Source: Rufibacter glacialis
GTDB lineage: Bacteria > Bacteroidota > Bacteroidia > Cytophagales > Hymenobacteraceae
Direction: 5' to 3'
Length of the DNA stretch: 64,000 nucleotides
Assembly (NCBI RefSeq): GCF_008271745.1
Contig: NZ_VKKZ01000020.1
Coordinates: 124,001 to 188,000 of the forward strand
In this document: positions 53,973 to 61,498 of the stretch, piece after piece
Position numbering within the stretch: the stretch's first letter is position 1
Layout: the number at the start of each line of letters is the position of its first letter
Translations under genes and position numbers: made by a program
The notes under the pieces: generated by a model
Seen by the model: only the letters and a program-made list of their open reading frames with translations
What the model was told of the DNA's origin: nothing
Databases searched by the model: none

Positions 53973-54959
53973 CTACCATTGCTGGTGCACCTCTGGTTTC
54001 AGGTACTGCTCATACACGGCCTTCACGCCTTCCATCTGGGCCGCAGACAAGGCTGGTAATTCCGCAGCATGCAGGTTACTGGCAATTTGTTCGGGCCTTG
54101 AGGCGCCCGGGATCACGGTGCTCACCTCAGGGAACATCAGAATCCAACGCAAGGCCCAGGCGGCCAAGGGTTCTTGTCCTGGAAAGAGGGTTTTCAGTTT
54201 CTCCACGGCCTCCAGACCTACCTCAAAATCAACGCCGGAGAAAGTCTCACCTTTGTCAAAGGCTTCTCCCTGACGGTTAAAAGCGCGGTGGTCCTGGGGG
54301 TTAAAGGTGGTGTCAGGCGACATTTTTCCGGTGAGCAGACCACTGGCCAGCGGCACCCGCACAATCAGGCCGACGTTATTTTCCCGGGCCACCTGAAACA
54401 GCTGTTCGCTGGGCTTCAGCCGAAACATGTTGAAGATAACCTGCACTGTGGTCACGTTGGGGTACTTCATGGCCAGCAAGGCCTCGTCTACCAATTCCAC
54501 GCTCACCCCCAAGTTCCTGATCTTCCCTTGCTCCTTCAGGCGATCAAAGGTCTCAAAGATCTCGGGCCGGGTATACACCTCCGTGGGCGGACAATGCAAC
54601 TGAATGAGGTCCAGGGTTTCCAGGTTCATGTTGCGGAGGCTTTCCTCCACGAAGTGCGTGAGGCGTTCTGGCGTGTACCCTTCGCTGGTATGGGGCTGAA
54701 TCTGGCGGCCGCATTTGGTGGCCAGAATAACCTCTTCTGAGCGCTCCTTGACCACCCGCGCCACGGCAGCTTCACTTTGGCCGTCACTGTACACATCAGC
54801 GGTGTCAATGAAATTCACGCCCGCGTCTATGGCCGAATGCACAATTTCTTCGGCGGTCTTCTCATTGAATGGTTCTCCCCAGCGGCCCCCTACCTGCCAG
54901 GTGCCCAAGGAGATCTCAGAGACGTTGAATCCGGTTTTCCCTAATTTTCTATACTTCAT
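53973..54959 (-). CDS. Aldo/keto reductase
   Basis: 328 residues, NADPH-dependent TIM-barrel oxidoreductase of unknown substrate. Catalytic tetrad: Asp and Tyr in NFIDTADVYSDG, Lys in ILATKCG, His in IQLHCPP. Cofactor segment WALRWILMFPEVSTVIPGA. Close in type to the neighbours at 55174 and 60623. Confidence 0.94.
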   Translation of the reverse strand: MKYRKLGKTGFNVSEISLGTWQVGGRWGEPFNEKTAEEIVHSAIDAGVNFIDTADVYSDGQSEAAVARVVKERSEEVILATKCGRQIQPHTSEGYTPERLTHFVEESLRNMNLETLDLIQLHCPPTEVYTRPEIFETFDRLKEQGKIRNLGVSVELVDEALLAMKYPNVTTVQVIFNMFRLKPSEQLFQVARENNVGLIVRVPLASGLLTGKMSPDTTFNPQDHRAFNRQGEAFDKGETFSGVDFEVGLEAVEKLKTLFPGQEPLAAWALRWILMFPEVSTVIPGASRPEQIASNLHAAELPALSAAQMEGVKAVYEQYLKPEVHQQW

Positions 54960-55173: not shown

Positions 55174-56070
55174 CTAATTCCGGTGTTGTTCGTAAACCTC
55201 TTTCGGGATTTGTCGCTGGAGCGAGAGCAGGATATTAGGATCTAAACCTGCCGCCTGGGCTGCGGAAAAGGCCTGCTGTAAATGCGTATCCGTTCTGATG
55301 CCTAGCACGGCTGTGGTGATGGCCGGGTGTTGCAGCACGTACCTTACGGCAGTTTCCATGACTTGCGCTTCGCCGGCAATGGCTTTGAGGGCCTCGGCAG
55401 CCTGGCCTACTTCTTCCACGGTGTGATTCAGGTACAGTTTTGGAGGTTTCCCCAATAGAAGCCCCTGGGCCAGGCTGCCCCGGGCCAGCACCCCCACCTG
55501 GTGGTGCTGCAACAATTCCAGCATCTGCTCTTCGGGACGGCGGTCTAGCAGGCTGTACTGCATCATAACGCTCACCAGGTTAGACTTGTCTACATACGCC
55601 CTGATCACGTTAGGTCTGATAGAGGAAATGCCGTATTCCCTGATTTTGCCTTGTTCTTTCAGGAGTTCAAAAGCTTCAATTGTCTCATCTATAGGATCTT
55701 CTATGGTGCCGCCGTGCAATTGGTAGAGGTCCAGGTAATCAGTTTGAAGGCGCTGCAGGCTTTGCTCTATGGCTTTCAGAATATAGGCCTTTGTAGGATT
55801 CCAATCCCAGCCGCTGCCGTCGGGCCTCCATTGGTTGCCCACTTTGCTGGCCAACACCACCTGGTCTCTTTTATCTTTGAACGCCTTGCCCACCAGTTTT
55901 TCGTTTTCCCCTTTGGCGTAGAGATCGGCGGTGTCAAAGAAATTGATACCGCCCTCCAATGCCTGGTGCAGCAAGCGGATGTTTTCCTCTTCCTCTCCGG
56001 CCAATGACATGCAGCCAAAACTTACTTCGCTCACCTTCAAGGCGGAGGTGCCTAGTTGTTTATATTCCAT
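55174..56070 (-). CDS. Aldo/keto reductase
   Basis: 298 residues. Tetrad in NFFDTADLYAKGEN, LASKVG and YQLHGGTIED. The cofactor segment is YVLQHPAITTAVLGIRT. It is the second of two same-strand aldo/keto reductases, 214 bases apart, so perhaps a related pair but not an obvious operon. Substrate unknown. Confidence 0.93.
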   Translation of the reverse strand: MEYKQLGTSALKVSEVSFGCMSLAGEEEENIRLLHQALEGGINFFDTADLYAKGENEKLVGKAFKDKRDQVVLASKVGNQWRPDGSGWDWNPTKAYILKAIEQSLQRLQTDYLDLYQLHGGTIEDPIDETIEAFELLKEQGKIREYGISSIRPNVIRAYVDKSNLVSVMMQYSLLDRRPEEQMLELLQHHQVGVLARGSLAQGLLLGKPPKLYLNHTVEEVGQAAEALKAIAGEAQVMETAVRYVLQHPAITTAVLGIRTDTHLQQAFSAAQAAGLDPNILLSLQRQIPKEVYEQHRN

Positions 56071-56326: not shown

Positions 56327-56998
56327 TTATACCTTTCGCCAGGGCGATAGGCCTTCCAGTTTCATTCTGTGGTACAGAAGCAGGAAATACACCAGGTCCA
56401 GGATAAAGATGCCGATGAAAAGGAGCAGCAACAGGAAAGAGTCGGGGAAATAAAGGTAAAACAGCACCGACGGGAACATGGTACCCACCATTTTGCTCAA
56501 GGCGATGTACACCGACTGGCCCGCCGATGAACCGCGTTTCAGCAGCATCCGCACAAATAGCACCGACATCATCAGGTTTTGGGCAAAGGCTGCGTAGATA
56601 CCAATGAAGTCCTTGAACTCCTGGGCCATGGCGGTGATGAGGAGGCCACTGAACACCAGGGTAAAGCCAAAGGTGAGGTAGAACAGGTTCCTAGGAAGGT
56701 TCTGCGGAAACTCCTGCCGACCATAATACAGGTACTGGACCATGATGCCCAGATCAAACAACAGCCACAGGTAATCAATGTATAACTGTGGCAGCGGATG
56801 CGGGTACACAAAGGAAAAGATAAACTCCCAGGCCAGATTCGCGCAGAGAGCCACCATGGGCATGCCGTAAAGTTTGTCCTGGTAGCCCCGGCGCAGGATC
56901 AGGAGATAGGTAATGGTCCAGAACAGGCCACTGCAGATTTGCAGAAAGGCGCTTAGGGTGGCATCAAGGTGAACCGGATTTTGCAACATACTTTTCAC
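56327..56998 (-). CDS. Seven-helix membrane protein resembling Pyr4/PaxB-type terpene cyclases
   Basis: 223 residues, seven predicted membrane helices. Marks shared with fungal transmembrane terpene cyclases: YGMPMVALCANLAWEFIF with Glu58, and FILDLVYFLLLY with Asp201, at positions like the catalytic Glu63 and Asp218 of Pyr4. If real it would cyclise an isoprenoid epoxide or polyprenyl compound at the membrane. The match is by eye; no prenyl synthase or epoxidase is beside it. A membrane protein of another family is the alternative. Confidence 0.7.
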   Translation of the reverse strand: MKSMLQNPVHLDATLSAFLQICSGLFWTITYLLILRRGYQDKLYGMPMVALCANLAWEFIFSFVYPHPLPQLYIDYLWLLFDLGIMVQYLYYGRQEFPQNLPRNLFYLTFGFTLVFSGLLITAMAQEFKDFIGIYAAFAQNLMMSVLFVRMLLKRGSSAGQSVYIALSKMVGTMFPSVLFYLYFPDSFLLLLLFIGIFILDLVYFLLLYHRMKLEGLSPWRKV

Positions 56999-57129
56999 TA
57001 ACCAAAAAGCCCCCTTTAGGTTAAGACGATAATTATTTTTCTTGCCGCCTTCCTCTTAAGGAGAACAAAGGACTTCCCTTGGTTTTCCTAAGAAGCCAGG
57101 TGCCGTATGTACCATTAAGAAAAAAAGGA

Positions 57130-60622: not shown

Positions 60623-61498
60623 ATGGCTGAGACACCACCCACCTTTTCACTTGACTTCTCTTTAGGCGGCGACCTGCCCGTGAACCGGATGGGTTTCGGG
60701 GCCATGCGCATCACCGGCGATGGCATCTGGGGACCGCCCAAAGATCGGGCGGAAGCCCTTAGGGTATTGCAGCGCTCGGTAGAATTAGGCATCACCTTCA
60801 TTGACACCGCCGATTCTTATGGTCCCAACGTGTCTGAGGAACTCATTGCCGAAGCCCTCTATCCGTACCCCAAGAATTTAGTCATCGGAACCAAGGGCGG
60901 ATTGCTGCGCACCGGGCCCAACCAGTGGCCCATCAATGCCAAACCGGACCACCTGAAGGAAGCGCTGGAAGGCAGTCTGCAACGTCTTAAATTAGACCGC
61001 ATTGATCTGTACCAGTTGCACCGTGTAGACCCCACCGTTCCCTTTGAACAGACCCTGGAGTTTCTACAGGATGCCCAGGAAGAAGGCCTGATCCGGCACA
61101 TAGGTTTGTCTGAGGTGACCATAGACCAGATTCAGCAGGCGCAGAAATACGTGGAGATCGTGTCGGTGCAGAACATGTACAGCTTTGACAACCGTAAGTG
61201 GGAAGCAGAGCTTATGTACTGTGAAGACAATGCCATGGCCTTCATTCCGTGGTATCCTTTGGGCGGCGGCAACCTGAAAGCGCAAGAAACCTTGGCGCAG
61301 ATAAGCGAGAAATACGGCGCCTCTCCCCACCAGGTGGCCCTGAGTTGGCTACTGCACCGCTCGGCCAACATCCTCCTGATCCCGGGTACTTCCAAGGTAA
61401 AACACTTGGAAGAAAATTACCAGGCAGCTTCTATCCGGCTCTCAGAGGAAGACTATGAAACCCTGAACCAGGCCGGCGCACAGACCTTTACCGGCTAA
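60623..61498 (+). CDS. Aldo/keto reductase
   Basis: 291 residues. Tetrad: FIDTADSYGPN, VIGTKGG, YQLHRVDP. Lower part has LSWLLHRSANILLIPGTSK. Similar to E. coli YdbC-type reductases. Third aldo/keto reductase in 8 kb. Substrate unknown. It converges with msrA across a strong terminator. Confidence 0.93.
   Translation: MAETPPTFSLDFSLGGDLPVNRMGFGAMRITGDGIWGPPKDRAEALRVLQRSVELGITFIDTADSYGPNVSEELIAEALYPYPKNLVIGTKGGLLRTGPNQWPINAKPDHLKEALEGSLQRLKLDRIDLYQLHRVDPTVPFEQTLEFLQDAQEEGLIRHIGLSEVTIDQIQQAQKYVEIVSVQNMYSFDNRKWEAELMYCEDNAMAFIPWYPLGGGNLKAQETLAQISEKYGASPHQVALSWLLHRSANILLIPGTSKVKHLEENYQAASIRLSEEDYETLNQAGAQTFTG

Follow-up and report, generated by a model that had tools for sequence, protein, structure and literature searches.

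A clusterless Pyr4-family membrane protein of Rufibacter glacialis, a likely terpene cyclase with relatives in bacteria and archaea

The closest described systems to the gene reported here are the Pyr4-type membrane terpene cyclases (PF25129), whose characterised fungal members act inside biosynthetic gene clusters. DmtA1, the drimentine cyclase of Streptomyces youssoufiensis, is encoded beside cyclodipeptide synthase and prenyltransferase genes; it loses its function when W29, Y33, W59 or E60 is substituted, and changes at N56, D214 or Y217 leave poorly or partly active variants (PMC6173783). The bacterial proteins XiaH, TylF, GroF and ZigF belong to the same family, share its proposed Brønsted-acid mechanism and also sit in clusters (PMC13307353). 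A survey by Kakumu and Helfrich (2026), which covered bacteria and not archaea, listed 1107 bacterial Pyr4-like candidates and kept 264 for their terpenoid-biosynthesis neighbours (PMC13307353); because only candidates with such neighbours were kept, a lone gene like that of Rufibacter would fall outside the kept set. Bacterial Pyr4-like cyclases are already known as a class (PMC13307353), and the lone group of bacterial and archaeal genes is the unexplained remainder.

We describe one such gene, from a 64,000-nucleotide stretch of the Rufibacter glacialis genome (the window). Unlike its characterised fungal and bacterial counterparts it stands alone, and unlike dmtA1 it adjoins neither a cyclodipeptide synthase nor a prenyltransferase gene. 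An earlier note, made from the bare sequence, had proposed a Pyr4-like membrane cyclase here, with seven helices, an NxxWE segment containing Glu58 and a DxxY segment containing Asp201. The features are as follows (residues counted from the GTG codon).

56327..56998, minus strand: open reading frame of the Pyr4-like transmembrane terpene cyclase, 223 codons from GTG
56327-56989, minus strand: probable coding sequence, ATG start at 56989, 220 amino acids
56906..56920, minus strand: W27-x-x-x-Y31, helix 1, marked by near-set conservation and DmtA1 counterparts
56825..56839, minus strand: N54-L-A-W57-E58 motif, helix 2; the E58 codon (56825-56827) encodes the proposed proton donor
56753..56755, minus strand: D82, helix 3, the same in every row of a 31-row alignment of the wider family
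56387..56398, minus strand: D201-L-V-Y204 motif, helix 7; D201 codon at 56396-56398
56999..57023, minus strand: inverted-repeat motif TAACC..GGTTA, a near-palindrome directly upstream of the cyclase start

Orthologues are present in 13 of 15 congeners (68-78% identity), and their first codon aligns with Met4 (MLQN/MLQD/MLKD), making the ATG at 56989 a likelier start than the GTG. The true protein probably begins there and has 220 residues, in which case Glu58 and Asp201 become Glu55 and Asp198. Estimates of dN/dS are about 0.09-0.14 against five congeners and 0.20 against a sixth, with dS above 1 in every pair and synonymous sites near saturation; these low values point to purifying selection and, together with the congener orthologues, argue that the frame is not a chance one. 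Upstream of several congener orthologues lie sequences similar to this motif (CTAACC..GTTAG). Elsewhere in the genome a stricter form of it is found a single time, a count not above that of its control. A 5' hairpin at this site was considered and rejected: its stem exceeded the majority of shuffled sequences in just a few species, so we report a motif only, which may be incidental.

A Pfam search of the protein, read up to E 10, gives a single match, to PF25129 (Pyr4-TMTC; E 4.6e-30, 105.4 bits against a cut-off of 27), spanning nearly the full length of the profile (model positions 15-223 of 227). The sequence supports the product of 56327-56998 as an integral-membrane protein of the Pyr4 family, a known family to which it adds a member, and the family call of the earlier note holds far over the cut-off. 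Likeness to the fungal Pyr4-type enzymes (near-full-length match, seven helices, Glu on helix 2 and Asp on helix 7) is drawn from the profile and the structural model and not from direct alignment to a fungal sequence. NCBIfam and PADLOC searches of the protein returned no match.

Both motifs lie where the note had placed them, and their acidic residues are conserved in homologues. Neither result that the note had named as refuting its call, a missing profile match or acidic residues that vary among homologues, was obtained. Among the rows covering each column of an 81-row set of near relatives, W27, N54, W57, E58 and Y204 are each found in 80 of 80, Y31 and D201 in 79 of 80 and D82 in 80 of 81. 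W27, Y31, N54, W57, E58, D201 and Y204 correspond to DmtA1 W29, Y33, N56, W59, E60, D214 and Y217, that is, to all seven of the tested residues, a correspondence that rests on published residue numbers (PMC6173783) and not on sequence alignment. The offset is 2 throughout the N-terminal half and 13 in the C-terminal part, and its constancy implies identical local spacing of the key residues. Asp82 is a possible counterpart of DmtA1 D94. Four proteins of a single other Bacteroidota genus in the wider set (g71, family f30, phylum sample; L026, L029, L030 and L032) have Ala in place of Glu58; they also carry Trp78 to Arg and, in three of the four, Trp27 to Gly, and they retain Asp82 and Asp201. 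These Pyr4-like proteins have naturally lost the proposed proton donor.

An AlphaFold2 model (31-row alignment; mean pLDDT 91.6) predicts the seven helices that the note had described, with W27 and Y31 on helix 1, N54, W57 and E58 on helix 2, D82 on helix 3 and D201 and Y204 on helix 7. Structure searches with the model place the KDEL receptor first (6i6b, Z 13.7, RMSD 3.4 Å over 173 residues), together with cystinosin (Z 13.2, 4.2 Å over 190 residues) and SWEET (Z 11.5, 4.2 Å over 184 residues); matches to the SWEET/PQ-loop/KDEL-receptor superfamily extend to Z 9.3 and the next unrelated match is at 6.4. Helical bundles as a class can yield Z values near 13. The model of a distant, P450-associated family member (L015; pLDDT 91.9), built from an alignment that includes the Rufibacter protein, also matches the KDEL receptor (Z 15.0, 3.9 Å over 187 residues), with unrelated matches beginning at Z 6.6. 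One structure-prediction alignment leaves out a plasmid-derived row. The predicted overall fold is therefore that of the SWEET/PQ-loop/KDEL-receptor superfamily, which supplies all leading matches of both models. No sequence relation to these proteins was detected: Pfam, read up to E 10, gives no match to the PQ-loop, MtN3 or KDELR profiles, a PDB search with the single protein finds nothing, and one with a profile finds CRAC-channel matches only (E at least 0.3) and no PQ-loop-type chain. The literature that we searched, mostly outside subscription journals, held no paper linking terpene cyclases to this fold.

Within Rufibacter the gene lies in a conserved syntenic block and in most loci adjoins two aldo/keto reductase genes. 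Its neighbours in the window encode aldo/keto reductases, a 2H phosphoesterase-like protein (2'-5' RNA ligase superfamily), NmrA/DUF2867, Mut7-C, DUF4268, MsrA, TauE and beta-lactamase-family proteins. As the note had remarked, no prenyl partner is adjacent; none of the profiled window neighbours is a prenyltransferase, epoxidase, oxidase or other terpenoid gene, and contextual support for an epoxy-prenyl, meroterpenoid-type role is absent at this clusterless locus. Among 104 near neighbours of the kin, no Pfam family recurs in more than four proteins. A span of 8 kb in the window carries three genes for aldo/keto reductases (53973-54959, 55174-56070 and 60623-61498). Two of these lie just downstream of the cyclase gene, share its strand and are syntenic in most of the congeners sampled.

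Relatives are patchily distributed. Within the Hymenobacteraceae, where orthologues also occur in Pontibacter, Botryobacter and Adhaeribacter, 33 of 200 genomes have a match, two of them (G357, G443) to a distant member only. A contig scan with a single-protein query found nothing, and an alignment-based query recovered relatives. Matches occur in 20 of 296 genomes of the window's phylum sample (counted over the cut-off), in 6 of 246 for the phylum of a Rubrobacter genome, in 9 of 150 for the class of a Nitrosopumilus genome (that genome included) and in 1 of 146 for the phylum of a Nostocaceae genome, the one being that genome itself. The best kin outside the family share 36-55% identity, mostly 43-55%, and come from Nitrosopumilus, Nitrososphaera, Methanoperedens, Anaerolineae, Ktedonobacteria, Nostoc, Syntrophomonas, Lysinibacillus and others; those at 43-55% fall in ammonia-oxidising archaea, Methanoperedens, Chloroflexota, Nostoc and Bacillota. 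Many derive from metagenome-assembled genomes, and complete or isolate genomes are also represented (for example, L097, L098, L099, L103, L118 and L127). All six outside kin that were checked match PF25129, at 92-117 bits. In a quick tree with SH-aLRT support only, the window protein falls in a 24-row Hymenobacteraceae clade (99) within a 100-row group, and a separate 7-row group holds the P450-associated L015. The patchiness and the high identity across phyla and domains suggest horizontal spread of the near group, with differential loss as the alternative. Nostoc sp. C052 carries one close relative, annotated as hypothetical, on a plasmid of conjugative type (L149 6983-7627).

More distant PF25129 members in Bacteroidota and Verrucomicrobiota adjoin UbiA, flavin monooxygenase or P450 genes. 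L051 shows the order UbiA, cyclase, flavin monooxygenase; in L050 a UbiA gene overlaps the cyclase gene; L047 has the order P450, cyclase, FAD amine oxidase; and in L135 (Verrucomicrobiaceae), whose protein is 36% identical to that of the window, a weak UbiA match overlaps the cyclase. These four loci are possible meroterpenoid-type cassettes outside Actinomycetota.

By analogy with the characterised enzymes, acid-initiated terpene cyclisation by the 56327-56998 product is likely. The explanation that we favour, and consider probable, is a Pyr4-family membrane cyclase in which Glu58 would initiate cyclisation of a host prenyl compound. On helix 2, Glu58 would donate a proton to an alkene or epoxide and so start cyclisation of a polyprenyl chain dissolved in the membrane. 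Asn54, Tyr31 and the aromatic Trp27 and Trp57 would tune this proton transfer, and Asp201 and Tyr204 on helix 7 would assist it. We infer this reaction from the family; the results behind it are family membership, the predicted seven-helix fold and the conservation of the seven residues. The residue set supports a Brønsted-acid mechanism acting on a prenyl chain within the membrane. The lack of an epoxidase next door would be in keeping with a reaction that starts at an alkene, the order proposed for DmtA1. As the gene stands alone, and its kin stand alone in unrelated lineages, the substrate would be a prenyl compound already made by the host and not the product of a dedicated cluster; respiratory quinones or polyprenols are guesses at such a compound. 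The biosynthetic neighbours of the distant family members speak for a cyclase, as does purifying selection. Against it stand the lack of an adjacent prenyltransferase or oxidase, a genome in which no P450 was found, and a predicted fold otherwise seen in transporters and a receptor; nor do we know of a near-clade member that has been assayed.

The missing partners could instead be encoded elsewhere: a UbiA protein and a flavin monooxygenase would prenylate and epoxidise an acceptor, and the cyclase would close the epoxide. The genome has seven UbiA hits and three long FAD_binding_3 matches, and distant Bacteroidota members do show the order UbiA, cyclase, monooxygenase. UbiA and FAD_binding_3 are, however, common housekeeping families, and their counts do not separate carriers from the non-carrier congener G003, which has the same number of UbiA hits; such neighbours are likewise missing beside the close archaeal and Chloroflexota kin. 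Four of the UbiA loci of the genome were inspected and gave no obvious cyclase-linked cluster. We regard this arrangement as unlikely. One UbiA gene lies in a compact operon (L159 4332-8318, G000 contig C20), which we take to resemble an ebo-type cluster.

The near clade might alternatively comprise transporters of small molecules or lipids, or receptors, in which proton coupling would fall to Glu58 and Asp201. Known SWEET, cystinosin and KDEL-receptor proteins are transporters or a receptor, intramembrane acidic residues in this fold can serve such coupling, all matches above the unrelated ones (Z of 6.4 or less) belong to it, and occurrence as a single gene fits. Yet the protein keeps every one of the seven residues that matter for DmtA1 cyclisation and has no PQ-loop or related profile match in Pfam, and the P450-associated L015 has the same predicted fold, which thus does not separate cyclase from transporter function. 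The shared fold of the models by itself would show no function and leaves this reading standing, at a probability that we judge to be low. Decay to a non-functional remnant is very improbable: the gene is missing from two of 15 congeners, in one of which (G003) the interval holds an unrelated 222-aa ORF and no cyclase remnant was seen at the syntenic site, and the g71 proteins show a decay-like change elsewhere in the family, but all motif residues are intact here, dN/dS is about 0.09-0.20 and the syntenic place is kept in most sampled congeners.

Returning to the membrane cyclase that we favour, its wider form would have a clusterless, horizontally spread group of Pyr4-like cyclases in bacteria and archaea modifying a common host isoprenoid, such as a quinone side chain or a polyprenol, by Glu-initiated cyclisation. 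We offer this as a tentative proposal with the chances against it; if true, it would be an undescribed membrane-lipid modification whose enzyme has a transporter/receptor fold. Natural-product clusters are the source of the characterised Pyr4-like cyclases, and the Rufibacter gene stands for a remainder hidden by the neighbour filter: its catalytic residues are intact, it lacks a cluster, and its relatives include proteins of ammonia-oxidising archaea, Methanoperedens, Chloroflexota and cyanobacteria. Its predicted fold ties a terpene-cyclase family to the SWEET/KDEL-receptor architecture and, if the protein is active, its lone occurrence suggests one-enzyme modification of a common isoprenoid.
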